Under the pieces are notes generated by a model. It worked only from the letters and a program-made list of their open reading frames with translations. It searched no databases and was not told where the DNA came from. Positions 32,645-49,037 of a stretch of DNA of 64,000 bases are shown here, one piece after another. Both the position numbers and the translations under genes were made by a program. Position 1 is the stretch's first letter. Every line of letters begins with the position of its first letter. The stretch lies in contig JAKBJF010000001.1 in the NCBI GenBank assembly GCA_021836125.1, forward strand, positions 62,001-126,000, in the 5' to 3' direction. Source of the stretch: Nanobdellota archaeon. Its GTDB lineage: Archaea > Nanobdellota > Nanobdellia > Parvarchaeales > Parvarchaeaceae.

Positions 32645-33860
32645 GAAACCAATTTACCTAAATAACGGGATAGAAGTGCTTTTGCGGCCAGCCATGGGAT
32701 TGCATAGAGTCGGTATCTCCGTGGGTTTAAGATATGGCGCTTTGTACGAAAGAAAAATAGGCTCAGCAAGCCTGATGCAAGATGTTATGTACAGTCCAAG
32801 ATCGGATATACAGGACGTATTAAAATCAAATGGAATCGAGTACGACGCATTTGTAGGTTATGATGAGGTCATAAATAGCGTTTCATGTACGCCAAATAAG
32901 GTAAACATGGCGCTCGACAATCTCCATGAAATAATTTTTAGGCCAAAATTCTCCAAAAAAGACACAGAAACAGAAAAGATGGGTATTATACTGGAAAATA
33001 TAAAAGAAATGGAAACGCCAGGGGATGGCGTATTATTGAGACTTGACGATATAATGTTCGACGGCAGCAGGTTGGCTACCCAAGTGAACGGAGATAATAT
33101 CTCTATATCCAAACTTAGTTCAAGAGACCTCGAACGGGAACACAATGAAGCTTATACCGGCAAAAGAATATCTGTTGCTGTATATGGTGCGATTAACTCC
33201 CACGATGCTTACGATATCGTAAAATCTAAGTTTTCCGATGTCCCTGCTGGCAGAAAATGCAGCACGGCAGTATTAAGCCTAAAAAATAATCAACCAGGCG
33301 AACTGATCGGGGAGGCGCCACTGGTTGAGCAAACAAAGTTTGCGATAGGGCTTTTAGGACCTGGAACAGGGGTAAATCGCAATTGGAAATCATATTATTC
33401 TGTGTGCATGGACTGTGCAGTCGACATTTTGGAAAAACGCTTATTCGAAGAGTTAAGGGACAAGAAGAGCCTCGTGTATTCGACGCGCGCAGAATATCTG
33501 TCCGGCGTCGGTTACGGAAAGACGATAATCCGCGGCGGTACTACAAGAGAAAGGACTAATGATACAAAGGAAGCTATAATGGCAGAACTCAGGAAAATGG
33601 CGGACGGAGAAATAAGCAAATACGAAATAGCACGTTCGATAGGGATGGAAAGATTCGAAGCGCAGAAAAGGAGGGACGATGCCGTAGATTCTTCTAAATC
33701 ATTGGTAGAAGATTGTATAATGCAGCTTCCTGCCGACTTCTCGGAGGCTCAGTTGAGCTATGCTAACTTAGATACTATAAGGGAAGTAGCTGCTAAGTAT
33801 CTGGATCCAGAAAGGTCTTACACAGTCATGCTAAAACCAAAAGGGCGTTCTTGCAAATAA
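32634..33860 (+). CDS. M16 family peptidase, non-catalytic subunit
   Basis: 408 residues, homologous to the upstream gene but without HxxEH: the equivalent region is GSASLMQDVMYSP, so zinc cannot be bound. It keeps the Arg-Tyr motif in the C-terminal half (ELRDKKSLVYSTRAEY) that contacts substrate in heterodimeric M16 enzymes. The pair thus divides labour like the alpha and beta subunits of mitochondrial processing peptidase. An AAAGGAG Shine-Dalgarno sequence inside the upstream gene precedes the ATG; translation is coupled. Confidence 0.9.
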   Translation: MESKKPIYLNNGIEVLLRPAMGLHRVGISVGLRYGALYERKIGSASLMQDVMYSPRSDIQDVLKSNGIEYDAFVGYDEVINSVSCTPNKVNMALDNLHEIIFRPKFSKKDTETEKMGIILENIKEMETPGDGVLLRLDDIMFDGSRLATQVNGDNISISKLSSRDLEREHNEAYTGKRISVAVYGAINSHDAYDIVKSKFSDVPAGRKCSTAVLSLKNNQPGELIGEAPLVEQTKFAIGLLGPGTGVNRNWKSYYSVCMDCAVDILEKRLFEELRDKKSLVYSTRAEYLSGVGYGKTIIRGGTTRERTNDTKEAIMAELRKMADGEISKYEIARSIGMERFEAQKRRDDAVDSSKSLVEDCIMQLPADFSEAQLSYANLDTIREVAAKYLDPERSYTVMLKPKGRSCK

Positions 33861-33946
33861 AAGTTCGCTGCGGGCTACTAAAGTTAGCGGCGCATATCTT
33901 AGTACAAAATTGTTTTAACGCCCATTAAAACTTCGTGTTTCTAATC

Positions 33947-34669
33947 TTATTTATGGAAGCGCAAAATTTCTTTTCTTTCTGCGCTTTTCAAATTTCGAAT
34001 CGCATATAGAATTATCATAGAATTAACACCTCTTTTTCTTAAATTTTTTATGTATTCATAAACCTTTTTTCTATTACCTACTATAGCGTCCTTAAGGCAC
34101 CACCCAACTCCTTTTTGAACCAAGTTCTCTTTATCCCATATTAGATTTTCGCAAAGCTCTAACGCTTCTTTGGTAAATTTTCCGCTTTCACCAATTTTGC
34201 GGGTAAAAACAACAACACTAGCACGGCGTTTCCACATATTTGTTGTGTTGTTCCATTTTTTGATGATTTTGAGGCATTTATCCGGAGATTTCAACAGAAG
34301 TGGTTGCAAAACGCCTAAACAAAAATCATCAGTCTGTGACCAGCTGGTAAAGTGATTAATGGCATTGTCTAGAAAATTAAATTTAGTTTTATTGATACAA
34401 TCGCTTTTTATTTTGAGTACAAAATTTCCAGCTAAGGTCGTCTCCTCCATTTCATTTTTGTATAAAATCTTGGCTAACCTCATCGCCTCTTTACAAGAAA
34501 GCATATCTATTTCTGCTTTGTAAGCTTTCAAGAGTTTACCGAGGACCGGCGCTTTTATTCCGAAGGAACGCCACCCCTTGTTTTTATAGTACTTTTTGTT
34601 TGTTTCAGTCGTTTTTTTATTCTCATGTTTTATGATTTCATCGTAGATTTCTTCATATACTTTTTTCAT
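33947..34669 (-). CDS. AlkD-like DNA glycosylase (HEAT repeat)
   Basis: 240 residues, all helical. Blocks characteristic of the DNA alkylation repair (AlkD) family are seen: NKGWRSFGIKAPVLGKL near the N-terminus, SWSQTDDFC (the Trp-Asp patch that faces the lesion), MWKRRASVVVF, and LVQKGVGWCLKDA. The family excises bulky or cationic N-alkyl bases without base flipping. The gene is solitary and reads leftward, converging with the M16 pair. Upstream spacing is AT-rich. Confidence 0.85.
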   Translation of the reverse strand: MKKVYEEIYDEIIKHENKKTTETNKKYYKNKGWRSFGIKAPVLGKLLKAYKAEIDMLSCKEAMRLAKILYKNEMEETTLAGNFVLKIKSDCINKTKFNFLDNAINHFTSWSQTDDFCLGVLQPLLLKSPDKCLKIIKKWNNTTNMWKRRASVVVFTRKIGESGKFTKEALELCENLIWDKENLVQKGVGWCLKDAIVGNRKKVYEYIKNLRKRGVNSMIILYAIRNLKSAERKEILRFHK

Positions 34670-34769
34670 AATTCGACTATTGCACTTTTAGTCATAAACA
34701 ATATCTAAGTTTTTGTATTTTTTATAACGTGCGATGTTCACTTTATAGTTTTGATTATCGTCGTATTTT

Positions 34770-35690
34770 CTATATTGATACATTTATGTTATTCGGGCTT
34801 AGCAGAGCGTATATGCCTGCATACTGGAGTTCTGAATTACTGTACTGACTACTTAGCGAATAGAAACCTTCTCCAAATTGGTCGTAATTTACAAAAGACA
34901 ATGACGATAGCCCAGTAATATTTTCCAGCAGGCTTCTAACCGTTGGCGCATCTCCGATATAGTCAACCAATCCAAGACTTTTTGCCTGGTAGCCCAGAAA
35001 TATAGTCGCATTCGTCCCTCTGACGAAAGAGGTTGAAAGATTCCTGTTTGCTGCAACTTCTGATACAAATTCGCTGTAGACAAGATTTGTCATGTTTTGC
35101 AGCCGTTGAAATTCCGCTTGCGTCAGGTTAACGTATGGCGAACCGATCTCTTTCTGTGAGCCAGCCACTATTTGATAATAAGTTATGTTTTTGCTTTTTA
35201 GATAGTTAGCATAATCGAGATAGCTCGACGTTACGCCTATAGAACCTACGGTAGAATAATTGTCTGCTACTATCTTGTTTGCGTAGCTTGCGACCCAATA
35301 GGCTCCGCTAGCTCCAAGAGTTTGTATCCACGCGACAACAGGTTTGTTGTTATTTTTTAGAGCGGCAGTTATTATATTGACCGCCACAACGTTCCCTCCC
35401 GGGGAATCTATTTCCAAGACTATGGCTTTTATGTTAGGATTTGCATCCGCACTTTTTATTTCTGAAGCTATTAAATTAGCATTTGCATATCCTGAAGCGG
35501 GGTTTCCATTCGCACTTAGAATACCTTCAATAGGCACAACGGCGATGTTTCCTGGGCTTATTAGCGGCGATATAACTTCGTAGAGTAGTAAACCGACTAT
35601 GGACACAACCACGACAAGCAGTATTATGAACACAAGGTAGATGTTTAATTTTTTAATCAGTTCTATTCCTTTTGAGTGCTCTTTTTTCAT
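34770..35690 (-). CDS. sppA: Signal peptide peptidase SppA (S49)
   Basis: 306 residues. An N-terminal transmembrane helix (about 17-38) anchors the protease. The core has VLEIDSPGGNVVAV, the nucleophile Ser128 in TLGASGAYWVAS, and Lys180 in AGSQKEIGSP exactly 52 residues later, the Ser-Lys spacing of single-domain archaeal SppA. It degrades cleaved signal peptides and membrane remnants. Its start overlaps the end of the 165-residue gene upstream by four bases, placing it in an operon with that gene and cysS. Confidence 0.95.
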   Translation of the reverse strand: MKKEHSKGIELIKKLNIYLVFIILLVVVVSIVGLLLYEVISPLISPGNIAVVPIEGILSANGNPASGYANANLIASEIKSADANPNIKAIVLEIDSPGGNVVAVNIITAALKNNNKPVVAWIQTLGASGAYWVASYANKIVADNYSTVGSIGVTSSYLDYANYLKSKNITYYQIVAGSQKEIGSPYVNLTQAEFQRLQNMTNLVYSEFVSEVAANRNLSTSFVRGTNATIFLGYQAKSLGLVDYIGDAPTVRSLLENITGLSSLSFVNYDQFGEGFYSLSSQYSNSELQYAGIYALLSPNNINVSI

Positions 35691-36184
35691 CCTATATATC
35701 CACCCGCTTTATTCTTATCCTTTGTTTTAGGACCTTCTATACCGCGCATTACGTCATCTATTTTCTCGCTTAGTTCTGTAAGGGTGTGCACGTTCTCGTT
35801 AAACAGATCTATAAGAACCGCCTTGTCATACTTATTTTTAAGCATCAAAGCAAGGTAAGTTCTGGAAACAAGTTCTCTGAGTTTATTCGCCATCTCGTTT
35901 ATAACTCCCAACTTGTCTTTGTCCTTTAGGAACTGATACACGTTCATGAATTCGTACTGTCCAGAATTAACGCCGACTGCTATAAGCCACTCGAGTCTGC
36001 CGCCGGAAGCCTCTGCACAGAGGTTTAAAATGTTGAGCAGGAACGTTTCTTCATCATAGAATTCACCTTCTCTGTCTATCGGTTGTCTGGTAAGCCAATA
36101 AAAATATTTCCGGTCTATTAGCTTGCTAGACAGTAAGTCATAATAATAGTCGAAATTTTTGATTATTTTTGAGTCATTCTCCAT
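35687..36184 (-). CDS. Hypothetical helical protein between cysS and sppA
   Basis: 165 residues, predicted mostly helical, no signal or membrane segment, no family recognised. It overlaps cysS by 11 bases at its start and sppA by four bases at its end, so all three are translated from one leftward mRNA. The segment KSKLIDRKYFYWLTRQPIDR-like opening (DYYYDLLSSKLIDRKYFYW) gives no motif. Confidence 0.65.
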   Translation of the reverse strand: MENDSKIIKNFDYYYDLLSSKLIDRKYFYWLTRQPIDREGEFYDEETFLLNILNLCAEASGGRLEWLIAVGVNSGQYEFMNVYQFLKDKDKLGVINEMANKLRELVSRTYLALMLKNKYDKAVLIDLFNENVHTLTELSEKIDDVMRGIEGPKTKDKNKAGGYIG

Positions 36185-37568
36185 AAGCCCTTCTTTTTAC
36201 CAATGCATAACGTCCTTCGTCTATGTCTATTACATTATATCCTGCCTGCTTTATGAATTCTCTTTTTTTGTCTGCGCCGGGCCAGTCCTTTTTCGATCTA
36301 AGTTTTTTCCTTTCCTCTGAGGCGGCTACGACTTCGTTTGGCACATCATAGCGCGGCACTATTCCAAGTACGGAATCCATATTATCAATGGCATCAAGAA
36401 TCTGTTTTTTCTCCTGTTTGCTTATCGCTCCTTCTTTTATGCGCTTATTTGCCAGAGACACCGCCTCAAAAAAATATTTTATCGCTAGAGGCGTGTTTAA
36501 GTCCTCGTCCGTAGCTTCTTTAAAGTTTCTCAATACATCTTCAGTGTCGTTATTGAAAATTGCACCATCTAGTTCTGCCAGGGCTTGCAGCGCTTTTATG
36601 CTGCTGTCTATATCTTGAAGAGTCTTTTCGTATTTTTTTAGTTCTTCTATAGTAAAATTCATCCTGCTGCGATAGTGCGTCGATACACACATCAGCCTGA
36701 AAGAGAGGGGGTCAAAACCGATTTTTTCCAAATCTCTTAGCGTGTAAAAGTTTTTAAGGCTTTTTGACATTTTTGTGCCGTTAACTAGAAGATGTTCCGG
36801 ATGGATCCAGTAATTTACGAATTTCTCCCCCGTATAAGCTTCGCTTTGGGCTATTTCGTTTTCATGGTGCGGAAATATCAAGTCTACAGCACCAGTGTGT
36901 ATATCAATGTGCCTTCCGAGGTACCGTATCGACATGGCCGAGCACTCAATGTGCCAACCGGGTCTTCCTTTTGCGAGTTTGCCCTCCCAAAAAACATTTC
37001 CATCATCTTCATCCCAGAATTTCCATAAGGCAAAGTCTGCAGCCGTCTCTTTTTCATATTCATCTTTTTTTACCCGCCACGCACTGTTTTTGTCGAGTTT
37101 TACGCCAGAAAGCCTTCCATAGTCCTTAAACTTCTTGATATCATAGTATATTCCATCTTCGCTTTCGTATGCGAACCCCTTTTTTATCAGGTATTCTATT
37201 ATCTCCTGCATCTTGTCTATGTTATCAGTGGCTTTGGTGTATATCTCGATGTCTTCTATGTTAAGTTTCTTGCAATCCTCAAAAAAATAGTCAGTGTATT
37301 TTTCCGTGTACTGCAGGAGGGGCAGATTCTCCTTTTTTATGTTTTTTATTATCTTATCCTCAACATCAGTAAGGTTCATAACCTCCTTTACCGGGAAACC
37401 ATTGTATAGCAGAATTCGTCGCAATATGTCGTTGAATATATATGTTCTCAAATTACCTATGTGCGCAAAATTGTATACTGTCGGACCGCAGCAGTATATC
37501 AACACCTTATCTTTATTTAATGGAACAAAGGGTTCTGTCTTCTTTCCTAACGTATTATACAATTTCAT
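36174..37568 (-). CDS. cysS: Cysteinyl-tRNA synthetase
   Basis: 464 residues, the normal length. The class I signature HIGH appears as HIGN (residues 36-39, FAHIGNLRTY) and KMSKS as GTKMSKSLKNFYT. Cys27 in YCCGPT is the first zinc ligand, and the WHIECSAMS and HHENEIAQSEA blocks supply the others, so the cysteine-discriminating zinc site is complete. It charges tRNA-Cys. First gene of the cysS-165aa-sppA operon. Confidence 0.97.
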   Translation of the reverse strand: MKLYNTLGKKTEPFVPLNKDKVLIYCCGPTVYNFAHIGNLRTYIFNDILRRILLYNGFPVKEVMNLTDVEDKIIKNIKKENLPLLQYTEKYTDYFFEDCKKLNIEDIEIYTKATDNIDKMQEIIEYLIKKGFAYESEDGIYYDIKKFKDYGRLSGVKLDKNSAWRVKKDEYEKETAADFALWKFWDEDDGNVFWEGKLAKGRPGWHIECSAMSIRYLGRHIDIHTGAVDLIFPHHENEIAQSEAYTGEKFVNYWIHPEHLLVNGTKMSKSLKNFYTLRDLEKIGFDPLSFRLMCVSTHYRSRMNFTIEELKKYEKTLQDIDSSIKALQALAELDGAIFNNDTEDVLRNFKEATDEDLNTPLAIKYFFEAVSLANKRIKEGAISKQEKKQILDAIDNMDSVLGIVPRYDVPNEVVAASEERKKLRSKKDWPGADKKREFIKQAGYNVIDIDEGRYALVKRRAYGE

Positions 37569-38214
37569 TGTAAGTTTACACAGCGTTTTGTTTTAAATAT
37601 TTAAGAAAATCAGTTTATAGATATACTTGCAAGTCGGTTGTTTCGTAAAATTATAACCAGCAATATTGCAAGATAAAATACAATTATTCCTGCCAATATC
37701 ATGCTTGACATAACAACAGCACGTTAAACCTAGATTTAAAACGTTTCTAGAAACCGTTAGCAACAGTTTCCAGCGCGATTGGCTTTAAGCCCGTTTTATA
37801 AAATAGTCACACATAAAATCTATTCGATTTCTTTTTGTAAGTTTTAAGAGGCAGATTTGACAAAAGTTACATTAGGATGTATTGACCCATAATAGTTGAC
37901 AAAGTACCCAATTTTCTGTTAAAAACACACACATTACCGTCTTTCTAGAAACGAAATCTTAATCTGGATTGAGGACGCCCGTGATCTAACCACAGAAATT
38001 AGAGAATATTATTAGTTTGTAGCTTTTCTTTCGTAAGCGTGGCTAACAGTCTTACTGAAAAAGGCTTCGCTTAAATCATGTTATATCGAATATACTTATC
38101 AGAACTGTCCTGAATATGACATAATACTTCCCAGAGTCTCTCATCCCACAGCTTACTCGTTGGATATATTGCCTTGTTATTAAAAGTTATTAAATTCTCT
38201 AAAACTTAGATGAT
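37569..38214. other. Intergenic region containing a mobile-element end copy
   Basis: 646 bp without a credible gene. At 37851-37889 lies a third copy of the conserved end sequence described at 41294-41332 and 48992-49030 (GCAGATTTGACAAAAGTTAC and on to ATTGACCCA); the flanks differ from the other copies. A TATA-like ATTAAAAGTTATTAAA precedes the gene at 38215. Nothing else recognised. Confidence 0.5.
37851..37889 (-). repeat. Element-end repeat, copy C (39 bp, degenerate)
   Basis: Shares about 32 of 39 positions by eye with copies A (41294-41332) and B (48992-49030). Only this terminal core is present here; no HTH gene follows. It looks like the scar of an element that has been lost. Confidence 0.55.
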
Positions 38215-38868
38215 ATGAGAAAAACCTTAACAGACGATTCCAAATTCCGTAAATTTATAGCATATTTTTGGATTGTTTTGATTGGTCTTGTACTGTTTTT
38301 GCCGAATTATCTATCAATCCCGTATCTGAACTTGAATAAAAGTTGCCCCCTTTATCCATTTTGTAGTTCTATTTCTACTCCGTGGGGTGCATTTACCTCA
38401 TTGTTTGTATTTGATGGTTGGACAAACTTGTATGCGTTTATACTGTGGTTTATGTTCTTGTTACTGATAACCGTTTCCATGTCGGCAGACCTAGTAGAAA
38501 AGTATACAAAATTTATAGTTATGGCTCTTTTTCCGCTATCTATATTTAGTAATGCGGTGGGGTGGGTTATCCTCGCAGTACAAGGCCTCGCGACACCTTA
38601 TGCAGGGGCATCAACATTCACATATGTCTTTCTTGGATTGCTATTCGGATTGTCAACCCCGGTTTTGATACAGAATTTTAGAAAAATGGGCCTAAAAAAT
38701 TTAGTAACAAACCCTGTTTTCTTAATAAACTTAGTTTTCGTGATAACTGCAGTATATTATATTGCTAGTACGCTTTTAACATCGTTTTCCATCCCACATA
38801 CAGATTATGTGCATGAGGTTAGTTTCTTAATAGGGGTGGTGTCAATTATAGCATACGTCAGAAATTAA
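38215..38868 (+). CDS. Six-helix membrane protein, probably rhomboid-like protease
   Basis: 217 residues with six hydrophobic segments. The block PWGAFTSLFVFDGWTNLYAF (56-75) resembles the rhomboid L1-TM2 region (W-x-x-x-T-S-x-F-x-H-x-x-W-x-H-L). GAST at 131-134 puts a serine where rhomboids have GxSG, at the start of a helix rich in Gly, and His200 lies in the last helix (VHEVSFLIGVVS). If real, the Ser133/His200 dyad would cut membrane proteins. The G after the Ser is replaced by Thr and the usual HxxxN is weak, so inactivity is possible. Family assignment is tentative. Confidence 0.5.
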   Translation: MRKTLTDDSKFRKFIAYFWIVLIGLVLFLPNYLSIPYLNLNKSCPLYPFCSSISTPWGAFTSLFVFDGWTNLYAFILWFMFLLLITVSMSADLVEKYTKFIVMALFPLSIFSNAVGWVILAVQGLATPYAGASTFTYVFLGLLFGLSTPVLIQNFRKMGLKNLVTNPVFLINLVFVITAVYYIASTLLTSFSIPHTDYVHEVSFLIGVVSIIAYVRN

Positions 38869-38907
38869 GTATAATTTCATACACACTAATAAATTTCTGC
38901 GCTTATA

Positions 38908-40185
38908 CTATAGTCTTGCTGCCAGTTCGGCAACAGCGGGTTCTGAGCATACTGGCGGTCTATTTGAAATACTGTTGCAGAGTGCGCTTATGTACAAATC
39001 CGCACCTGCATACTCCGTCCATGCAAAGGTATTATTTGGGGCTCTAAGACTCGATATAATTTGAGCTTGTGTGACATTGTTGATAAGACTTGTACCATCA
39101 TAAAAATCAACAGAACTTACGCCTGGAAAATAAAATCTGCCCCAGATAGTCTGTGGTGTGCCAAACACATAATTTGCGCGCTGAATAGTTGAGAGATTTG
39201 CTAAGTTTACCGTTGCAGGACCGTTCTGAGTCTGATAAGTATAAACGCCATTTTGCGAGCTTTTAACTACATAAGCACTCATCGTATCGACAAGGAAGCC
39301 AAATGCAGAGGAATAAACTGCATTATTTATTTCCCCGCCTATTGTAGGGAGTGGTTGCACATTAAAGCCTTGCAATATAGGATCTGTATCTTCCATACTT
39401 ATGAAATTTATATAGCTACTATTGTAATAGTTCCCAATATCCAGCGACGAGGAATACAATTCATTTTGAGACCAGTAGATCGTAGATACGTGGTTGTCTC
39501 CGAGCGATGAATACCCTACAAACAGACCATTAAATCTACCAAATGTCGCTAACGCTAGTGCCATAGCCCATCTGTTTTCGCCACAGTAAATGCATGTAGT
39601 GCTTCCGAGATATATGACAGAAGTCTTATTATCGGAGGTGAAAAGCGCAGAGTTATTTACTGGTGCTTCCAGACATGCGCCAGTTGACTGACTTGAGCAG
39701 AAAGAGATCGTACCGTTTAATACCATCTCCGCAGCGATGTTATAGTAATTTAAATCCGGATTCTGAAAGGTCTGCATCTCCTGCAGTGAAAGGGGCTCAT
39801 TTATAAGATTGAACGAAGGGTTGTTCGCGATAGTTTCATTGACTAGTGCGGGCGTAGGCAGAGCCCCTTCTACAGACATACTTTGCACTGTTGCATTGAG
39901 CGTTATTTTGGGCGTATTCTGCGAATGTGCTCCAACCAATAAATACACGAGAAGCATGACCACAACAATGCCAAGAATAACGGCTAATACCTTGTTTTGC
40001 TGCCAAAGAAAGTGATTTCCGCGGGCTAAAAACCCGTTGTCTGCCTCTTTCTCAATGGCAGATTTTTTCTCCAGTTTTGTTTCATTCTCCTTTGTTTTAA
40101 GTACTAATTCAAGTTTCTGGTTCTTCAAAGAGAGTTCGTGTATCTCTTCCTCTAAGTGCTTTATCCTATCATCTTGGTTTTCCAT
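38908..40185 (-). CDS. DUF929-type membrane-anchored protein with CxxC
   Basis: 425 residues. An N-terminal coiled coil (residues 1-50, KHLEEEIHELSLKNQKLELV) is followed by one transmembrane helix (about 68-88). The extracellular part has YLGSTTCIYCGENRWAMALA, a thioredoxin-like CxxC at the start of a helix, the hallmark of the archaeal DUF929 family. Later blocks (TEYAGADLYISALCNS) hold two more Cys. It may act as a surface thiol-disulfide protein. It is transcribed divergently from the CcdA-like/ATPase gene across a 67-bp promoter region with a palindrome. Confidence 0.75.
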   Translation of the reverse strand: MENQDDRIKHLEEEIHELSLKNQKLELVLKTKENETKLEKKSAIEKEADNGFLARGNHFLWQQNKVLAVILGIVVVMLLVYLLVGAHSQNTPKITLNATVQSMSVEGALPTPALVNETIANNPSFNLINEPLSLQEMQTFQNPDLNYYNIAAEMVLNGTISFCSSQSTGACLEAPVNNSALFTSDNKTSVIYLGSTTCIYCGENRWAMALALATFGRFNGLFVGYSSLGDNHVSTIYWSQNELYSSSLDIGNYYNSSYINFISMEDTDPILQGFNVQPLPTIGGEINNAVYSSAFGFLVDTMSAYVVKSSQNGVYTYQTQNGPATVNLANLSTIQRANYVFGTPQTIWGRFYFPGVSSVDFYDGTSLINNVTQAQIISSLRAPNNTFAWTEYAGADLYISALCNSISNRPPVCSEPAVAELAARL

Positions 40186-40252
40186 TTTACTTAGCCAATG
40201 TTAATTAATTATACACTCCATATTTATATATACATATGTCCATATGTAAACT
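40186..40252. promoter_or_regulatory. Divergent promoter with perfect operator-like palindrome
   Basis: TATA-like TATTTATATA at 40221-40230, immediately followed by TACATATG-TC-CATATGTA (40231-40248), a perfect 8+8 bp inverted repeat, then the ATG at 40253. A repressor bound there would cover the transcription start of the rightward gene. The product of that gene starts with a CcdA-like DNA-binding segment, so autoregulation is likely. Confidence 0.65.
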
Positions 40253-40912
40253 ATGCAGAACGATGGAATCAGTTTAATAAGTAAGACTATTTACACAAAG
40301 CCCACATATTTAGATATGACAAACAAGCGGAACACACTGCTCTATCTAGACAAAGACCTTGTAACTGCCTCAAAAAAGGCAGGACTTAACCTTTCGTTGG
40401 TTGCCGAGGAGGCATTGAGATCTAGACTGCCTTATTATGGGGAGTTTAGACCAGAAACTCATCTTATGCAGGCACTTGAGCAAGGGTCTGCAGCAATCTT
40501 GCCGCTTCGCATAGAAGAACTGCACATAATAGACAAAATGGTAAATAAAACTATAGAGTTAAAGGGCTTAAACTTGATTGTAGGGGGAAACAACACGGGA
40601 AAGAGCACTATTTTTAGACTCATATGTGGGGCGTTTAAGATAAGCCAATTGAATAGATTGTCGTATCACCTGTCCAGTAAAATAGAAGTGACTATTGCAC
40701 CGACAAGGAGGATTGACTATGGAGAAGCAGAGTCCGATTCGAGAATTCCTTTGAACACGCAATGCCTTGTCACAGATACATTATTTACGCAACTTGATGG
40801 GGAGTCACGATCAAAGATGCTGAAGTATCTCATCAAAACCGGTGCACAGCTTGTTCTAATGGAGTTGGAAGTACTGAAAGGCGCAGAAAAATTCAATGTT
40901 ATAAAACTGTAA
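40253..40912 (+). CDS. CcdA-like (RHH) domain fused to a compact ABC/SMC-like ATPase
   Basis: 219 residues. Residues 22-60 (RNTLLYLDKDLVTASKKAGL, then SLVAEEALRSRL) match the ribbon-helix-helix N-terminus of CcdA-type antitoxins. Residues about 90-219 are an ATPase reduced to the minimum: strand KGLNLIVGGNNTGKSTIFRL with Walker A (GGNNTGKST), and a Walker-B/D-loop-like CLVTDTLFTQLDGESRSKML where the usual D-E is T-D-T-L. The ABC signature is not visible. The TATA spacing supports the first ATG. It may be a truncated regulatory ATPase or an antitoxin-like sensor; no toxin gene is adjacent. Confidence 0.65.
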   Translation: MQNDGISLISKTIYTKPTYLDMTNKRNTLLYLDKDLVTASKKAGLNLSLVAEEALRSRLPYYGEFRPETHLMQALEQGSAAILPLRIEELHIIDKMVNKTIELKGLNLIVGGNNTGKSTIFRLICGAFKISQLNRLSYHLSSKIEVTIAPTRRIDYGEAESDSRIPLNTQCLVTDTLFTQLDGESRSKMLKYLIKTGAQLVLMELEVLKGAEKFNVIKL

Positions 40913-40975
40913 AAATGATATGGCGCCCCTCATAAACATTGTACCTTTGAATAAAGATATTAGAGATTTGTTTAA

Positions 40976-41200
40976 TTAGATGACTTGTTGCCTAATTTCC
41001 AGCGGATAGACTTTGTTCTTGAATGTAGATGGAATGCTCCAACGCCATATCGTGCTAGGGGCGATGCCAAGGATTTGGGCAGCTTTTATCTTGCTTAATC
41101 CATATTGGACCATGGCTGCGACCTTGATTTTTTCCTGGTTTGTGTAATGCCGCCCCGTCATATCTATTTTAGAAAAGAGACTACTTAAATGACCTTCCAT
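40976..41200 (-). pseudogene. Truncated copy of the multi-HTH gene at 48161-48901
   Basis: 74 residues, nearly identical to the first third of the 246-residue protein (DMTGRHYTNQEKIKVAAMVQ, then AAQILGIAPSTIWRWSIPST). It ends in a stop where the long copy continues with KLHKSGVSRLK. Upstream sequence is conserved with the long copy for ~130 bp. It retains one helix-turn-helix and could still bind DNA. Left of the stop the sequence is unrelated, marking the truncation point. Confidence 0.75.
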
Positions 41201-41332
41201 CGCTTGCCAAAGTTGGCTAAATTTAGAGCGTCATTTTGGAAGAAGCTATGCGCGTAAACATCGACTGGTAAGCCACTACAAGCATTCTAAGGGGCAGATT
41301 TGCCAAAATTTACATTCGGATGTACTGACTCA
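41201..41332 (-). repeat. Element-end repeat, copy A
   Basis: Sequence upstream of the truncated HTH gene, alignable with 48902-49030 along its whole length (for example CATTTTGGAAGAAGC and CAAAATTTACATTCGGA in both). The right border ends TACTGACTCA as in copy B, after which the copies diverge. Confidence 0.75.
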
Positions 41333-41389
41333 CAGTACCTCCGAAAGTAGACAGATAGCGCTTAAATAAAAGTTCTACAATATTATTTT

Positions 41390-41608
41390 ATGACACGTCT
41401 TATTAAGTTTAGAGTACGTTTTAGGCCACAGAATGCAATCGATTATCCAGAATTATCAATGATTGTAGAAATAGATGAAGTGCACTTAACTCCAAAAAGC
41501 CTCATTGATGCAATAGACAAAAGCAGGCAAGAAATGCTTGCCGCAACTAACTATATTAAAAAAAGACTTCCTAATAATGATATTATTGGTATAAAGAGAC
41601 TTAACTAG
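41390..41608 (+). CDS. Small hypothetical protein
   Basis: 72 residues: beta-rich start (LIKFRVRFRPQNAIDYPELS) followed by a helix (SLIDAIDKSRQEMLAATNYI). A TATA-like CTTAAATAAA at about 41362-41371 supports the ATG. Its stop overlaps the 3' end of the convergent transposase gene by four bases. It sits just outside the element-end repeat. No family recognised. Confidence 0.5.
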   Translation: MTRLIKFRVRFRPQNAIDYPELSMIVEIDEVHLTPKSLIDAIDKSRQEMLAATNYIKKRLPNNDIIGIKRLN

Positions 41609-43176
41609 CCATTCGGATCCTTTCCTTTTGTAAGCAAAGCTATAGCGAACTTCTTTGCAGTTATTTGCGTTTCCTTGAGAGATAAACCTAAGAACATCGC
41701 CAACCCCAAGTCAACGAGTAGCCAGCAGTTGTACAGAACAACAGATAGCATAAAGTAAAGATAGCGGATTGTGTAATTTACAGATGTAGTTTTGCCTCGA
41801 AAAGTATACTTCTTGACACGGTAACCAGTTTCAATCTGCCAACGAGAACGGTACATTTCGCCTATTCTAAACGCCAGAATCAAGTCCTCTGAACTCAGAT
41901 GGATGTTCGTCGCAAAATAATGTTTATTGCCATCTCTTTCCAGCACTACTAAATTGAATCTGCTGTCTTTCATTGCACAGTTTGGATATATTCTGGGAGC
42001 ACTTAACCTACTGACCCGCTTTACTACAAGTGCATTGGTCTTAGCGGGCATTATGTACTGCAGACTAAGTTTTTTGAATAGATTTATCACAGGCGAACTG
42101 AAGAAGCCCCTATCCAAGAAGACTTTTCCTATGTTTACTCTTGTCTTGGCGTAAGTAAGTAGTTTTTCGACCAGTTCCGTCTGATCGTCCTCAGCAAGGA
42201 TTGGCAGTGCAAACAACGTGAACCTTTGACCGTGGTTCACTATGTCCAGAGTTATGAATTTGTAAGCCCAGGATGTTCCCTGCTCTGGCTTTGTCCCCAT
42301 TACGCCATAGTTTTCTATGTCGCCGTAAAACAGCCAGGAAGTCGCATCTATCGCCACATCAACCTTTCTCGTCCCTATCAGTCTCATCTGCTTAGCCGTT
42401 CTGAACGTAAGTTCGAATATCTCAAGGAAAATTTCCCTTAGCTCAGCCATGCCAAACTTCTTTATGTGATATAATAATGTGTCGGCGTTAGGAGACCTTC
42501 TTTTTAGAAGATCAGAGAATATGGCAGCGCCGCTTTCGGCAAAGTTCTGCTCGTAAGCAATCCAGATTAGCGTGTCCAGAAGCTCCTCATTCTTGAATAC
42601 GGCATTGTGCCTAAGCTTGAACTTAAGCTTCTTCTTCAGGCGGTTCTTCACGAAGGAAATTAATTCTGCTGCCTTTGCGCCCTTATGGTTGCAGATAGTC
42701 TTTTCGGATGAATTTTCTTTGGGTTTTTTCTCTCGGCTATCAATGTCTAAAATGATGTTAAACCTCTCGGCAGCTTCTCTTGTCGTGGTGATAACAAAGT
42801 CCACAAGCGCAAGGTCTTCTTTATCTAAAGTCTTTGTAAAGTGCCAGATGTCCTGTTGTGTTGGGATAATCACGCCGTTTTCGTTCTTGTCGAAGCCGAG
42901 CAACAGCGCTTCTTCTGGTCTGTTCCGCAGATAATTAACCAACGCTCTGAAGGACTTGATATTCTTAAGTCTGAGCAAAAGATATGCTTTTGTCATAGTG
43001 TCTCTGGAGAAAGTCCTACGGGTGCTTATGCCAGGTGCAAGTTGCAACTTAGAAATAAGAAGTGAAACTGAAATTTCATTTTTACTGTTAATAAGATCAG
43101 TATAAGTAGCGAATATATCATTCGCTAAATACTTATATTCTCCGTCTATCTTTCTTATATCTGTAGAGTTTTCCAT
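41605..43176 (-). CDS. DDE transposase (IS4-like superfamily)
   Basis: 523 residues. The DDE catalytic blocks are visible: first Asp in KVDVAIDATSW, second in GKVFLDRGFFS, and Glu in SRWQIETGYRVKK, which is the YREK-type signature of IS4-related families (R-x-x-I-E-x-x-[FY]-x-x-x-K). The N-terminal ~190 residues contain a helical DNA-binding region (FSRDTMTKAYLLLRLKNIKS). The frame is intact. I could not find terminal inverted repeats at the borders, so the element limits are unknown; a 10-bp hairpin lies just upstream at 43193-43225. Confidence 0.85.
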   Translation of the reverse strand: MENSTDIRKIDGEYKYLANDIFATYTDLINSKNEISVSLLISKLQLAPGISTRRTFSRDTMTKAYLLLRLKNIKSFRALVNYLRNRPEEALLLGFDKNENGVIIPTQQDIWHFTKTLDKEDLALVDFVITTTREAAERFNIILDIDSREKKPKENSSEKTICNHKGAKAAELISFVKNRLKKKLKFKLRHNAVFKNEELLDTLIWIAYEQNFAESGAAIFSDLLKRRSPNADTLLYHIKKFGMAELREIFLEIFELTFRTAKQMRLIGTRKVDVAIDATSWLFYGDIENYGVMGTKPEQGTSWAYKFITLDIVNHGQRFTLFALPILAEDDQTELVEKLLTYAKTRVNIGKVFLDRGFFSSPVINLFKKLSLQYIMPAKTNALVVKRVSRLSAPRIYPNCAMKDSRFNLVVLERDGNKHYFATNIHLSSEDLILAFRIGEMYRSRWQIETGYRVKKYTFRGKTTSVNYTIRYLYFMLSVVLYNCWLLVDLGLAMFLGLSLKETQITAKKFAIALLTKGKDPNG

Positions 43177-43192
43177 AACTGGGAATTCTATG

Positions 43193-43225
43193 CAAGGGGT
43201 TACGCTGTCAAGGTTTAACCCCTTG
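43193..43225. repeat. Perfect 10-bp stem-loop upstream of transposase
   Basis: CAAGGGGTTA at 43193-43202 and TAACCCCTTG at 43216-43225, 13-base loop, in the 61-bp gap between the small membrane gene and the transposase. On the + strand a T-rich run follows, as in a terminator, but both flanking genes read leftward. It could be an element end or a 5' leader structure that limits transposase expression. Confidence 0.5.
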
Positions 43226-43237
43226 GTTTTGTCTTTT

Positions 43238-43417
43238 TTATCCTAGAAGACTAACTAGTCCTACCACGCCTAATAAGGCGGACAGAAGTAGCCCAAAACC
43301 AAGGGCTATTGTGCCAGCCATGGCAGTCAAACTTGATTGCATAAGGGCGTAGCCCATAGCAGTCAATCCTCCTGCTCCAGAAAGGGCAGTAAGGATATTT
43401 TTTATTTCTTTGGCCAT
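43238..43417 (-). CDS. Small two-helix membrane protein with strong ribosome binding site
   Basis: 59 residues: MAKEIKNILTALSGAGG, then two Gly/Ala/Leu-rich hydrophobic segments (about 18-34 and 36-58). GGGAGG lies six bases before the ATG, one of the best Shine-Dalgarno sequences in the window, so I take this start and not the longer frame. Such small glycine-rich membrane proteins occur in archaeal viruses and as holin- or bacteriocin-like peptides; no specific match. Lies between a transposase and a tRNA-like element. Confidence 0.55.
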   Translation of the reverse strand: MAKEIKNILTALSGAGGLTAMGYALMQSSLTAMAGTIALGFGLLLSALLGVVGLVSLLG

Positions 43418-43555
43418 AAGGCCTCCCTTAAAAGACAAGGCGGAGGCTATGCTCGAGCACCAGGCAATAAAGTTTAATAATAGAACCAGTCTATCATTAA
43501 ATGTGGTTGTGGTGCTGCACTGCAGTGCCTTGCATTTTAAGTATAAAATTATCTT

Positions 43556-43637
43556 TGCCCCAATCGGGAATCGAACCCAATAGGTGCAGTGTAGTCGATG
43601 TATGCTGTGATACACTGCACCCGCGCCGCGCTGGGGC
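43556..43637 (-). tRNA. tRNA-like element with intact acceptor/T arm and an 11-bp hairpin in place of normal D/anticodon arms
   Basis: Read leftward from 43637: a 7-bp acceptor stem (GCCCCAG with TTGGGGC, discriminator A) and a canonical T arm (TTGGG-TTCGATT-CCCGA). Between them, a 10-nt GC-rich segment CGCGGCGCGG replaces the 18-nt D arm. Then GGTGCAGTGTA pairs perfectly with TACACTGCACC around a 17-nt loop (TCACAGCATACATCGAC). Position 8 is C and not U, and no anticodon loop with U33 can be assigned. It may be a decayed tRNA, an intron-bearing tRNA with unusual processing, or a tRNA mimic. The rest of the 43418-43883 gap shows only AT-rich promoter-like sequence. Confidence 0.4.
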
Positions 43638-43883
43638 GTTTTTGTTTTCTTGCTGTATATACCTAAGTCATTACTTCGGCAAGAAGTTGAAACGTTTAAA
43701 AAGAAGAGTTGTGATATTATCATATCGGGATTAATACGGTGTTTTGTTTAAGCGCGAAGCACCGCATTGATCTTATTTAAGATTCTTTATCATTCGCCTC
43801 CGCATAAATTATATTTCATATATCTTATTGGAGATACCACTATTTATAGTTTCTTAAAGTGCTGAGAGAACTTGAAAATACAT

Positions 43884-44930
43884 TTATTTCTTGATTGTCC
43901 GCATACTCTGAAGGTTATCCAATAAGGATTTGGCCTCCTTTACTAATACCCTTAGAATCTCCATCTTTGCATCATTTTTGGCAGCGCTGACGCGTTCTTC
44001 TGGCGGTAACGAACGACATGTTTCTATTGCGGTATAAATTTTTTTAAAATAGCGATCCGTCCTAGCTGGGTTCTTTTGATCCAATTCTTCTCTGGCAGCT
44101 TTTCCACCACGTACATCAAATGTTCTGGTTAATGTTTTGTCTTTCAATATTTCATCCAAAATCCTGACATCTCTTACATCTTTAAACCTCTTTGCATTAA
44201 CCCACTGCGTAAATAAATCTACATTACTTGAATCTTTTCGCCACTCAGCCAAATTTTTATTTTTGTAGAGCTCTTCAAAATATGTATACTTTTCCCAACG
44301 TAGGTTATCATTAGGATATCTCTTGGCGTATCTTTCGGTGGCATCATAAGCATCTATTGCTCTAGCAATTGTTGCTCTGCTCATCCTCAAAATTCCTGCA
44401 ATATTTTCGTATATAAGTTTATATTTTGTATTAAGTTCCTTAATGAACTTTGCTTTGTTGATTGGCTTCCATGTCTGCTTTCCAGCTATGTGTTCAAGGA
44501 TTAAAAGTAAAGCTATCGTGCTTTGAGACGTCTTAGGGGGGATAATTTTGCACGGTACTTTATCAAATGCTTCTGCTTTAACACCTTCCAACTTACCGCC
44601 ACGAGCCTCTTCTTTCAATTTTTTTAAACACGCCAAACGTCGATTGCCTTCCTTTACTATAAAAGTTTTATCGATTTTTTCCACTAAAAGTGGCTCATAA
44701 ATACCTTTTACCGCGAAGATTTGATTATACAGGTCCCTAGTTTCTGTGTCTTCCCAAATTTCCTTTTCTATTGTCTCTGGAGTCAAAGTTTTTACAAGTG
44801 CGATGTGGTAGAACCTTGGGTTGGATAAATCATAGGATAAGTCGGTTATATCTATTGTTTTTGTTTCGGAGTCTTGTAAGACTCTTTTTAGCTCGTCTTG
44901 ATAAATTCGTGCTACCCTCTTTCGTCCCAT
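43884..44930 (-). CDS. ParB/sulfiredoxin-fold domain protein
   Basis: 348 residues. Residues about 65-115 form a ParB-like nuclease/CTPase fold: GIYEPLLVEKI and then IVKEGNRRLACLKKL, where EGNRR matches the ParB E-R-R-x motif. A predicted helix-turn-helix follows (IAGILRMSRATIARAIDAYD). The C-terminal half is helical and charged. No ParA is adjacent, so chromosome partition is unlikely. Such solitary ParB-like proteins are common beside restriction-modification and phage genes, as here. Own promoter: TATA-like ATAAAATTATA upstream. Confidence 0.75.
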   Translation of the reverse strand: MGRKRVARIYQDELKRVLQDSETKTIDITDLSYDLSNPRFYHIALVKTLTPETIEKEIWEDTETRDLYNQIFAVKGIYEPLLVEKIDKTFIVKEGNRRLACLKKLKEEARGGKLEGVKAEAFDKVPCKIIPPKTSQSTIALLLILEHIAGKQTWKPINKAKFIKELNTKYKLIYENIAGILRMSRATIARAIDAYDATERYAKRYPNDNLRWEKYTYFEELYKNKNLAEWRKDSSNVDLFTQWVNAKRFKDVRDVRILDEILKDKTLTRTFDVRGGKAAREELDQKNPARTDRYFKKIYTAIETCRSLPPEERVSAAKNDAKMEILRVLVKEAKSLLDNLQSMRTIKK

Positions 44931-45021
44931 TTTACAGTTAGTAGCGCGTAATATTAATAGTTTTCTATAATTTTATGAGAACTAAAAAGAACCCATTTTT
45001 ACTTTGAATCAATTAGATCAT

Positions 45022-45915
45022 TTAATTTAGATTGTAGTTCCTTATAAGCAGTTCATTACCTACCTTTGCAGTTTTTTTGCTTGAATTATTTGTGCCGTAT
45101 CTTAATCTCCATGTAAGCTTGACCCATTTTTCTGAATGATTCTCACAAAATAATTTTTGTATTTTAGAGCAATTATCATATGTGACCAACCAATTATGCT
45201 TACAAATAACTAGCTTTCTAAAAAAGATATCATGATTAAATTTAATATGCAACTGCCCATGCTTGCCATAAAGTTTAGACTTTGAGTTAGAATAGTATGG
45301 TGGATCCAAAAAAATGAAAACATTGTTTCCGTCATTCTTCAATAGTTTTGAATAATCCCAGTTTGTTATCTTAACCCCTTGCAAAAGGGTTGAGGCAGCA
45401 ATAATCCTATCTATAGAGGACTGTGTAAACCTTCCTTTGAAAGCCTGCTCTGAATACCCTCCAGATTCCGTCAACCCAGAGAAAGTTACTCTATTCAAGA
45501 TAAAAAACCTAGCTGCGATATCAATACTGTCTGTTAGTTTATTTGCTGTGTTAATTAACGAATCATATAATTTCCGTCCATTTTTATAATGTTCTTTTAA
45601 TAAGTTTATTGCCGCCACGAGTTCTTGCGGTGAATCCCTACACGCAGTCCAGAAGTTATACAGGTTATAATCTATATCATTTATCCAGTATTTTTTTTCT
45701 GGGAACCTTTGTTTAAGAGCAAAAAAGAGCGAGCCTCCTCCAATCATAGGTTCTCTGTATTCATTAAAATCTGGAACGAATGGTATAATATATTTTATTG
45801 CTTTTGATTTTCCTCCAGGAAATCTAAGAGGACTTTTTATGAGACACACGCCCGAGAGCTTAATAACTTCCTTCTTCCTGTTCTGCTCTTGCGTCGAGAA
45901 AACTCCAGTTTCCAT
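45022..45915 (-). CDS. D12-class (Dam-type) DNA adenine methyltransferase
   Basis: 297 residues. Motif X-like FPGGKSKA is at 32-39, motif I at 55-65 (EPMIGGGSLFF), and the catalytic motif IV DPPY at 204-207 (FLDPPYYSNSKSK). This is the alpha-type N6-adenine methyltransferase of the Dam/DpnM class. It directly follows a DUF2080 gene (stop TAA and ATG adjoining, TAAATG). Opposite lies a restriction endonuclease sharing the promoter region, so it most likely protects host DNA in a type II system. Target sequence cannot be read from the gene. Confidence 0.9.
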   Translation of the reverse strand: METGVFSTQEQNRKKEVIKLSGVCLIKSPLRFPGGKSKAIKYIIPFVPDFNEYREPMIGGGSLFFALKQRFPEKKYWINDIDYNLYNFWTACRDSPQELVAAINLLKEHYKNGRKLYDSLINTANKLTDSIDIAARFFILNRVTFSGLTESGGYSEQAFKGRFTQSSIDRIIAASTLLQGVKITNWDYSKLLKNDGNNVFIFLDPPYYSNSKSKLYGKHGQLHIKFNHDIFFRKLVICKHNWLVTYDNCSKIQKLFCENHSEKWVKLTWRLRYGTNNSSKKTAKVGNELLIRNYNLN

Positions 45916-46107
45916 TTATTTTGCATCGTCCGTTGTGTCATCGTCTATTATAACCAAATATACCTTTTTGCCAATGAATTCTTTTAAACAATCTACCTTT
46001 GCACCCGTACCAAAACTAGTTACCCTCCGCTCAAGCACGCTACACATACCAGTTATTTTAACCTCTTTTTTAATCTCTACATTTACTTTATGTCTACCTT
46101 TTCCCAT
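45916..46107 (-). CDS. DUF2080-like small protein, first gene of methylase operon
   Basis: 63 residues. The pattern VLERRVTSFGTGAKVDC then FIGKKVYLVIID matches the DUF2080 family (kkV-x-x-F-G-x-G-x-x-V-x-x-P-K-x-x-x-GK-x-V). That family is usually annotated as transposase-associated and has an AbrB-like beta fold. No transposase of its usual partner type is adjacent; instead it precedes the Dam gene with no gap. It may serve as controller of the divergent restriction and methylation promoters. ATG preceded by a strong TATA-like block. Confidence 0.6.
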   Translation of the reverse strand: MGKGRHKVNVEIKKEVKITGMCSVLERRVTSFGTGAKVDCLKEFIGKKVYLVIIDDDTTDDAK

Positions 46108-46139
46108 TTTATTTTATATATATTAAATATATATAAATT
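46108..46139. promoter_or_regulatory. Divergent promoter of the restriction-modification locus
   Basis: 32 bp of pure A/T apart from few bases (TTTTATATATATTAAATATA and on) between the leftward DUF2080-methylase operon and the rightward endonuclease. It can serve as TATA box in both directions and is nearly palindromic (TATATATTAAATATATATA), hence a possible binding site for a controller protein. Confidence 0.5.
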
Positions 46140-46943
46140 TTGACTATCTACACATCCGTAGTATTTAATCAGTCTTTGTCCATAGTTGATATGGATGATG
46201 ATAGTAAGTCAGAAATAAAAAACCTGTTACTTGAAAAATTAGATAAAAAATTGAATTCATACGAGTCAGAAACAGATTATATGCCTTTCTTCCAGGCCAT
46301 TTTTAACAAAAATCAGATAGCAACCGCTTCCATCCTTCAATCATTTTATACCTCTTTTGGAATGTCTATGTATGAACAGATAGGACAGATTGTAGCTATT
46401 AGTAACGGTTTTGAAGCAGAGCGCCAATACCTCCTTTTAGGGGACATTGATAATAATACAGAAAATTTAATAAATAAAATTAAAAGGGATTTGATAGATG
46501 GCAAAAGGACACCGGATCTAAAAGAGGAAGTTAACTTAATAAAGAATAGTATTCAGTCATCCAAGCCTAAACAGGACAATGACAGTACAATAGATCTATT
46601 TATAAAAAACAAGAAAGGAATGGAGTATTATTTTGATTTAAAAACTGTAAAACCAAACAAGGGCGATTTTGAGTCCTTTAAGGGAAGATTATTACGCTGG
46701 ATCGGTCTTAGATTGAGTCAATCGAAGTCTGCGGATGTTCACGTAGCTATAGCTTTACCATACAATCCGTATTATCCTAAAAGATACGTTCGTTTTGGAT
46801 CTGATAAATTATTTGATAGGTCTCAATTATTAGTGCAGGACGATTTTTGGAATTTAATTGGTGGGAAGGGCACATTTAAAGAAATTATAGATATATTCAA
46901 ACAAGTTGGCAAAGAACTTAGGACTAGAATAGATAAAATTTAA
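46140..46943 (+). CDS. Type II restriction endonuclease (MjaII/TdeIII-like)
   Basis: 267 residues if a TTG at 46140 is the start, 250 if the ATG at 46191 is used. The TATA block 20-25 bp before 46140 favours the former as a leaderless start, the latter has the better codon. A PD-(D/E)xK core is visible: TIDLFIKNKKGMEYYFDLKT, with D in the first strand and D-x-K in the second, followed by VKPNKGDFESFK. This block is typical of the MjaII/TdeIII group, whose known members cut GGNCC. The specificity here is unproven. It faces two methyltransferase genes. Confidence 0.7.
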   Translation: MTIYTSVVFNQSLSIVDMDDDSKSEIKNLLLEKLDKKLNSYESETDYMPFFQAIFNKNQIATASILQSFYTSFGMSMYEQIGQIVAISNGFEAERQYLLLGDIDNNTENLINKIKRDLIDGKRTPDLKEEVNLIKNSIQSSKPKQDNDSTIDLFIKNKKGMEYYFDLKTVKPNKGDFESFKGRLLRWIGLRLSQSKSADVHVAIALPYNPYYPKRYVRFGSDKLFDRSQLLVQDDFWNLIGGKGTFKEIIDIFKQVGKELRTRIDKI

Positions 46944-46958
46944 TAAAGTCGCCCGTCC

Positions 46959-48155
46959 TTATTTATTCCTAAAATAAAATATCGATTCAAAATAAGGTTT
47001 TCCTGTCCTTGTTGTTCTCATCAGCACCGGCCTGTTAAAAGTATCAATTAGCTCAAATCCGCAGGACTTCCCTATGTTTGTATAAAGATTAAACTTATCA
47101 TTTGCCACAATGAACACTTTTGCATTTGATTTCAAAAAGCGCTTTATATTATTAAAAACAGCAATAATGTCATTTGAGTAGTCTTCTCTAGATTGCCAAC
47201 CCTGCCCTTTTTTGGCAGGACCTATTTCTTTTGTATCTAGTCTAGGAAAACCAAATAGCTCATACGCATATTCGTGCTGTTCATGATAGTCTATTACACC
47301 GACATATGGCGGAGAAGTAAATATACCATCTACTTTTAGTGAAGGCGGTAAATCTACAAATCTAGAATCTCCTTGTATAATACTCATTTCGACATCGTTC
47401 CTTATCTCACTGAATTCTTCTATTCTATAATATGTGTCCCAAGCATAGCGCCAGATAAATTTAAATGCTTCATTTGTAGGTATACAATATCTTTTATGTT
47501 TTATGCACCAGTATCTTTCTTTAAGCGGAGCCTTTGGTCTTGCCAACTCATAGTGAGTAATAAGTCTTGCAGACCTAGCCGATCTTGATAAAATAATTTT
47601 AAATAAATCCTGATATTTGTAGTTCTGCAACTTGCTCCTAAAAAATAAGATTTCTTGCAGGGCGACGGGCGCAAACCAATCATTCAAATATTTGCTTTCT
47701 GTGGTAAATTTCTCTACACGCACACCCTTTCTTAAATTTTCGCTGAACTCTTTTGTTTTTTTAAGGATATCATTTAATTCGGAACGCAATTCATTTATAT
47801 CATATTTATCCGCCTTTGCCTTGCAAATTAGTGCATTGAACGGAGATAGTTCTATTCCTACAGATGGCATGCCTAAAACATTTGCTTCTATAGATGTAGT
47901 TCCAGAACCAACGAAAGGATCCAATATTATATCCCCTCTTTTAAAGAATTTTCTTAAAAATACTTCTACAAGCTGCGGTACAAATTTACCTAAGTAGGGA
48001 TGTAACCTATGAACGTGTTTTGTTCTTTCTGATTCTCTAACATTCAAAAAGGTCAGGTCATTTCCTAAAGTTTCTATATTTTTGGTTATATCAGATCGTT
48101 CTTTTACTTCATTAAAATCTATACCAAATTTATTAGCAATCTGTTCTAATTCCAT
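46959..48155 (-). CDS. DNA methyltransferase with DPFVGSGTT and SPPY motifs (N4-cytosine or N6-adenine)
   Basis: 398 residues. SAM-binding motif I is at 79-87 (DPFVGSGTT), after an N-terminal RLHPYLGKFVPQLVEVF stretch common in archaeal members. Catalytic motif IV is S281-PPY (FTSPPYVGVIDYHEQHEYAY). SPPY is most common in N4-cytosine enzymes. It is the probable cognate methylase of the endonuclease, with which it converges (16-bp gap). Its ATG is six bases after the stop of the HTH gene, so the two are likely one operon and the HTH protein may regulate it. Confidence 0.85.
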   Translation of the reverse strand: MELEQIANKFGIDFNEVKERSDITKNIETLGNDLTFLNVRESERTKHVHRLHPYLGKFVPQLVEVFLRKFFKRGDIILDPFVGSGTTSIEANVLGMPSVGIELSPFNALICKAKADKYDINELRSELNDILKKTKEFSENLRKGVRVEKFTTESKYLNDWFAPVALQEILFFRSKLQNYKYQDLFKIILSRSARSARLITHYELARPKAPLKERYWCIKHKRYCIPTNEAFKFIWRYAWDTYYRIEEFSEIRNDVEMSIIQGDSRFVDLPPSLKVDGIFTSPPYVGVIDYHEQHEYAYELFGFPRLDTKEIGPAKKGQGWQSREDYSNDIIAVFNNIKRFLKSNAKVFIVANDKFNLYTNIGKSCGFELIDTFNRPVLMRTTRTGKPYFESIFYFRNK

Positions 48156-48160
48156 TATAA

Positions 48161-48901
48161 CTATACAGTTCTTTTTCTCCCACTTAACACGTTCTTAATG
48201 ATATTTAATTTTCTTAGACTTATATTCTTTGAATTAGATAATAACAGCTTCTCAGCAGCCTTTTCTTTACCTTTTATGAAAACAACAGCTTTCTTTCCCA
48301 TAACAATAATGTTTATCTTAGCCTGCCTTTTCAGGACTCTAAATAACCTCAAATTCTTGGAAGATATTACGATTGCCTCATTATTGATAAGCTTGCATAG
48401 TGCCTGAAAATACCGCCCGCTGACCCTATCGCCGTTCTCTTTTATGTCTGAGGTCCAGCGTATCACCGTTGCATGGCAGACGTGCAAGATGTTTGCAATC
48501 TCGAACTTCGGCACGCCGCTTCTTGCCAGTTGCCGTGCCTTGAGTCGTATTGCAATCGGGTACATCTTGAATTCACGACCGTATTTATCCCGCCCCAGCC
48601 AGCGATTTACCGTCCGCAATCCGATTCCGAGTTTTATTGATATTTTCAGCCTTGAAACACCGGACTTGTGCAATTTTATGACTTCTTGCTTTATTTCAGG
48701 AGGATAGACTTTGTTCTTGAACGTCGCTGGAATGCTCCAACGCCATATCGTGTTAGGGGCGATGCCAAGGATTTGGGCAGCTTTTATCTTGCTTAATCCG
48801 TACTGGACCATGGCTGCTACCTTCACCTTTTCCTGTGGGGTATAATGTCTTCCAGTCATATCCACTCTAGAAAGAAAGTTACTTAAACAGCCTTCTATCA
48901 T
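48161..48901 (-). CDS. Protein with three helix-turn-helix domains, probably mobile-element encoded
   Basis: 246 residues. At least three HTH units are seen: VQYGLSKIKAAQILGIAPNT (about 33-52), HKSGVSRLKISIKLGIGLRT (about 78-97), and LARSGVPKFEIANILHVCHA (about 122-141). The C-terminal ~100 residues are basic and helix/strand mixed (RQAKINIIVMGKKAVVFIKG), with no DDE, serine or tyrosine recombinase signature. It resembles the DNA-binding half of transposases or resolvases. The ~130 bp upstream are repeated before the truncated copy at 40976-41200. It reads into the methyltransferase gene. Confidence 0.75.
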   Translation of the reverse strand: MIEGCLSNFLSRVDMTGRHYTPQEKVKVAAMVQYGLSKIKAAQILGIAPNTIWRWSIPATFKNKVYPPEIKQEVIKLHKSGVSRLKISIKLGIGLRTVNRWLGRDKYGREFKMYPIAIRLKARQLARSGVPKFEIANILHVCHATVIRWTSDIKENGDRVSGRYFQALCKLINNEAIVISSKNLRLFRVLKRQAKINIIVMGKKAVVFIKGKEKAAEKLLLSNSKNISLRKLNIIKNVLSGRKRTV

Positions 48902-49030
48902 TTGACAAAACGAGCTAAATTTATGGTGTCGTTTTGGAAGAAGCCATTTGCATAAACCTCAACTGGCAGCCTATTAGAAGCATTCCATGAAGCAGATTTG
49001 ACAAAATTTACATTCGGAACTACTGACTCA
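48902..49030 (-). repeat. Element-end repeat, copy B
   Basis: Conserved with copy A (41201-41332) from just upstream of the HTH start to TACTGACTCA at 49021-49030. The terminal 24 bases recur inverted behind tRNA-Val at 62526-62549 with one difference. Immediately to the right is the hairpin at 49038-49054. Confidence 0.75.
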
Positions 49031-49037
49031 GGTGAGT

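Follow-up and report, generated by a model that had tools for sequence, protein, structure and literature searches.

A candidate ribbon-helix-helix autorepressor with a reduced P-loop domain and a palindrome at its own promoter in a Nanobdellota archaeon

Ribbon-helix-helix (RHH) dimers of the repressor MetJ bind to tandem 8-bp met boxes, and tandem short self-palindromic boxes are found with MetJ/Arc-type repressors. The antitoxin CcdA (PF07362) carries an RHH DNA-binding half and a C-terminal toxin-binding half, and has its site at its own promoter. In the DndE-DndD system, RHH DNA recognition is paired with an ABC ATPase (PMC10853773), and multidomain and cis-fused toxin-antitoxin proteins are also known (PMC4826407). 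Here we describe a gene of a Nanobdellota archaeon that, like DndE-DndD, combines a predicted RHH DNA-recognition part with an ABC ATPase part, but does so in a single polypeptide. In DndE-DndD the ABC ATPase is full-size and separate, and DndE contains two RHH units; among the neighbours examined at this locus, none was seen to be a Dnd gene. The analysed stretch of DNA (the window) comprises 64 kb of a 157-kb contig, and the genome amounts to 800 kb on 35 contigs in an assembly that is 66% complete. An archaeal origin is indicated by the layout of gene starts (TATA near -30, start apparently leaderless) and by DUF929 matches across most of the order, which holds a single family of three genera and is probably a DPANN-type lineage of small genomes, perhaps Parvarchaeum-like. 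We propose, at a probability of roughly 40%, that the gene encodes a lineage-specific, stand-alone archaeal RHH autorepressor whose P-loop domain is reduced. The gene and its parts are as follows:

40253..40912, plus strand: RHH/P-loop fusion gene, 219 aa, open reading frame intact
40316..40429, plus strand: ribbon-helix-helix (CcdA-type) segment, residues 22-59, from PF07362 (model positions 1-34) and single-sequence AF2
40541..40636, plus strand: ABC/SMC-type Walker A region (GGNNTGKST), residues 97-128, PF13476
40747..40912, plus strand: C-terminal segment resembling Walker B/D-loop by eye (LVTDTLFTQLD), without statistical support

Coding bias of 0.135 nats per codon extends over the full length of the fusion gene in its own frame, and the other five frames score -0.01 or less. 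An internal ATG at 40316 would, if used, yield a product of 198 aa. The full-length protein gave no usable AF2 model (pLDDT 32.7). The reading frame is intact, and the CcdA-like N-terminus, the Walker A and a palindrome between TATA box and start codon, all reported in the first-pass annotation, are present.

The N-terminal part is a predicted RHH DNA-binding segment. Its strand-helix-helix pattern RNTLLYLDKDLVTASKKAGLNLSLVAEEALRSRL aligns with positions 1-34 of the 71 in the CcdA model, at 19.2 bits (E=0.0017, residues 25-58) for the whole protein and 22.1 bits (E=1.9e-4) for the isolated RHH piece, both slightly below the curated cut-off of 22.4. In the single-sequence AF2 model of this piece, two helices come after an extended stretch, the shape that an RHH monomer should have, and block pLDDT values at the core are 81-87. 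The alignment stops short of the toxin-binding C-terminal half of CcdA. A search for CcdB (PF01845) at E<=1 across the 66% complete assembly found no match, and up to the downstream insertion sequence (IS) elements no possible partner gene runs in the same direction; the nearest same-strand ORF downstream lies 480 bp off, within an IS. Because the match covers the DNA-binding half only and both CcdB and a partner gene are missing, the segment is taken as RHH and is not demonstrably an antitoxin: of the proposed CcdA-like antitoxin, the RHH half is matched slightly under the cut-off, and the antitoxin label is weak.

These observations also bear on the idea that the protein is a true antitoxin of the CcdA family, joined in cis to an ATPase partner that is toxic or regulated. 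CcdA is indeed Pfam's top family for the N-terminus and cis-fused arrangements are on record, but the truncated alignment, the missing CcdB and the distant downstream ORF make this reading very improbable. In addition, CcdA-type N-termini occur on various other proteins in genomes of the same taxonomic class: two of them (L021, ORF 1066-1659, and L022, ORF 1051-1704, both on the minus strand), each of ~200 aa, join such an N-terminus to a C-terminal domain of no recognised family and without a P-loop, so that fusion of a CcdA-type module is in itself not unusual. These 217-221-aa frames were rejected as relatives of the fusion gene, their C-termini being unrelated and non-P-loop.

The second part of the protein resembles ABC/SMC heads of the AAA_23 family (PF13476) in a strand-Walker A-helix unit (IELKGLNLIVGGNNTGKSTIFRLICGAF), which scores 27.6 bits (E=5.5e-6) against a curated cut-off of 27. 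In contrast to AAA_23 proteins, only 33 of the 201 model positions are matched (residues 97-128 to model positions 11-43), and it is to these residues, too, that nearly all other library matches (ABC transporters, OLD/Gabija-type heads) are confined. By inspection, neither an LSGG-like signature motif nor a Q-loop is visible in the fusion protein. By eye, LVTDTLFTQLD...QLVLM can be likened to a Walker B, D-loop and following strand, with Thr at the position of the catalytic Glu; however, the C-terminal segment has no match in Pfam or PDB, and no library detects the LVTDTLFTQLD region. Scored with a local ABC/Rad50 HMM, a weak one built from nine narrow sequences (the C-terminal lobes of relatives' ABC/Rad50-type proteins), the C-terminal region ranked 959/1877 among shuffled copies and is thus no better than shuffles. 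Since only ~45 residues separate the Walker A from this putative Walker B region, the domain lacks the helical arm and signature that are usually present. The P-loop domain is predicted to be reduced or truncated, with the Walker A portion alone statistically P-loop. From the earlier description of a minimal ATPase with a good Walker A, an altered Walker B and no signature, the first and last elements stand, but the Walker B is unsupported.

Because neither Pfam/PDB nor the local HMM finds a P-loop signal in the C-terminal 80 residues, nucleotide control is speculative; of a nucleotide-sensing ATPase, the Walker A is recognised and the remainder of the domain is undetectable. The boldest form of the proposal, a nucleotide-gated RHH repressor in one polypeptide, in which a miniaturised, hydrolysis-dead ABC-type P-loop would set the grip on tandem 8-bp boxes in an ultra-small-genome archaeon, is unlikely in our estimate.

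The region upstream of the fusion gene contains the following elements:

40223..40230, plus strand: TATA box TTTATATA, 8/8 match, position -30 relative to the fusion-gene start
40231..40248, no strand: 18-bp perfect inverted repeat TACATATG-TC-CATATGTA, which can also be read as two tandem 8-bp boxes, ACATATGT and CCATATGT
40304..40319, no strand: weak second copy ACATATTTAGATATGA with 3 mismatches over the internal ATG, noted post hoc
38908..40185, minus strand: divergent DUF929 gene, 425 aa, PF06053 at 1.1e-7
40206-40213: TATA-like TATAATTA of the DUF929 gene, at about -28

The palindrome spans -22 to -5 of the fusion gene, directly past TTTATATA, and the start appears to be leaderless. This would be a good place to block TFB or RNA polymerase, with which an occupied site would clash. 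ACATATGT is itself a self-palindromic octamer and the adjoining CCATATGT differs from it by one change; the spacing of the two octamers is that of MetJ boxes, although these are candidate sites and no sequence relation of the fusion protein to MetJ was found. Allowing up to two mismatches, the palindrome is unique in the genome and has no other copy in the window. Such confinement to one locus fits a local autoregulator. The weak copy ACATATTTAGATATGA, which like the paired octamers speaks for a function, lies 72 bp downstream of the palindrome. Near-matches of this kind number 8 in the window against 2.1 in shuffles, a post hoc count whose excess comes mostly from this one cluster.

As a sequence feature, however, the palindrome is ordinary. 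Perfect inverted repeats with 8-bp arms and a spacer of up to 6 occur 12 times in the 64 kb, compared with 7.4 in simulations, and the chance of such a repeat is P~0.064 per promoter-sized stretch with local composition, or ~0.026 per 70-bp upstream region. With a chance of ~3-6% per stretch and ~30 promoters in the window, one is expected. The palindrome is real and well placed, yet its existence alone is within chance, and the claim of self-repression through it keeps the position at the gene's own promoter but loses the argument from palindrome quality (0.026-0.064). The tandem-box appearance and the uniqueness in the genome suit RHH autorepression without proving it. Autorepression is plausible because the RHH-plus-Walker-A fusion is real and the site lies between TATA box and start. 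The divergent 46107/46140 promoter region, in a restriction-modification cluster of the window, also holds a perfect palindrome, TATATATTTAATATATA.

It had further been suggested that the protein may control the DUF929 gene. Relative to this gene the palindrome is located at -63 to -46, upstream of TATAATTA and outside the normal archaeal initiation footprint, so that control by occlusion is unlikely. Most genomes of the order have DUF929 matches, and related genes occur throughout the genus (nearest only 22-31% identity); the genus genomes with these distant homologues all lack the fusion gene, and nothing indicates that a regulatory link between the two is conserved. Given the position of the palindrome and these genomes, DUF929 control is doubtful, and we do not uphold the suggestion. 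The TATA boxes of the two genes are only ~9 bp apart, from which we infer that the promoters may compete; repressing one could even favour the other.

Single-sequence searches in the 32 genomes of the order did not find the fusion gene in the other 31. Across 371 genomes of the phylum it was likewise not found, the matches being Walker A cross-matches to ABC proteins; the sole longer one (L013, a 563-aa frame) is an ordinary ABC-F protein. GTDB and IMG/VR peptide scans, which detect close relatives only, gave no relative; the IMG/VR matches L052 and L053 were rejected, as their frames run antisense to a phage gene of 834 aa. Within the order, the small AAA_23 frames (~150-220 aa) turned out to be either ordinary ABC transporters or short P-loop proteins resembling kinases, and tblastn of the fusion protein against phages and plasmids returned weak partial matches only. 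As no relatives were found, there is no phylogenetic footprint for the palindrome.

The surroundings of the gene are rich in mobile and restriction genes:

37848-37889: end of the IS whose remnant lies at 40965..41332, on the other side of the fusion gene
40965..41332, minus strand: truncated IS remnant, 80% identical to window positions 48663-49030, with an HTH_Tnp fragment
41358-43755: transposon-like element of 2.4 kb with 14-bp inverted ends (13/14 complementary)
41390-41608: ORF of 72 aa inside this element, no recognised family
41605-43176: IS4-type DDE transposase inside this element
43884-48155: restriction-modification/defence cluster, 3-8 kb from the fusion gene

One IS end recurs at three places in the window, as copies or fragments (37848-37889, 40965-41332 and 48663-49030), and several more occur in genus members. 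The repeated IS ends mark the region as an IS hot spot. One genome labelled as the same species (G013) has no DNA match to window positions 32000-51900, whereas other genomes of the genus do match; either G013 has a gap here, or the region is strain-variable or misassigned.

This variable, IS-rich setting is in keeping with a gene that was acquired recently or put together locally as a chimera; the chimera is the close rival of the autorepressor. The gene would then be a decaying or recent chimera of an RHH antitoxin or regulator start and an ABC/SMC ATPase fragment, recombined in an IS-rich spot, with no selected switch and with a palindrome that arose by chance in an AT-rich promoter. In agreement with this possibility, which ranks close behind our preferred reading, IS remnants flank the gene (37848-37889 and 40965-41332), 0/31 other order genomes contain it, the palindrome stays within chance expectation, and nothing beyond the Walker A is recognisable in the ATPase part. 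Against it stand the intact reading frame, the full-length coding signal and the canonical promoter; moreover, the IS remnant begins ~53 bp past the stop codon, so the IS did not cut the gene.

The cluster at 43884-48155 contains a ParB/PDC-M38A-like gene, a D12 adenine methyltransferase, a DUF2080 protein, a TdeIII-type endonuclease and an N6/N4 methylase. With an endonuclease, two DNA methyltransferases and the ParB/PDC-M38A-like gene so near, the fusion protein might belong to defence or a mobile element, its RHH targeting DNA and its ABC/SMC-like head serving as motor or scaffold, by a logic like that of OLD, Gabija or DndD-DndE. The best PADLOC matches of the Walker A are the heads of LmuB, NsnB, Old and GajA, and the pairing of RHH DndE with an ABC ATPase is a precedent (PMC10853773). 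However, the PADLOC matches span ~40 residues around the Walker A that are common to all such ATPases, the protein has no nuclease domain and falls short of the size of an SMC-like protein with a coiled coil, and an IS stands between it and the restriction genes, all of which renders a defence role distinctly unlikely.

For the preferred reading, a stand-alone autorepressor, we envisage that the CcdA-type RHH part, as a dimer, would occupy the palindrome, read as two adjacent 8-bp boxes, between the TATA box and its own leaderless start, and thereby block initiation of its own gene. The appended reduced P-loop domain may bind nucleotide, add a dimer contact, or both, and so tune DNA binding; efficient hydrolysis is not expected. 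The reading frame with its coding bias, the RHH-type segment, the Walker A and the positions of TATA box and palindrome are what the sequence shows, whereas binding to DNA or nucleotide, a coupling of the two and autorepression are deduced from it. Of the switch suggested in the first-pass annotation, this retains the RHH-plus-Walker-A architecture and the site between TATA box and start; DUF929 control is doubtful, and the tested features support neither nucleotide sensing nor the name of antitoxin. If the proposal is wrong, the gene is another orphan chimera from a variable region rich in IS and restriction genes. If it is right, a reduced archaeal genome would have built a compact energy- or nucleotide-responsive repressor from a toxin-antitoxin-type DNA-binding module and a minimal P-loop.
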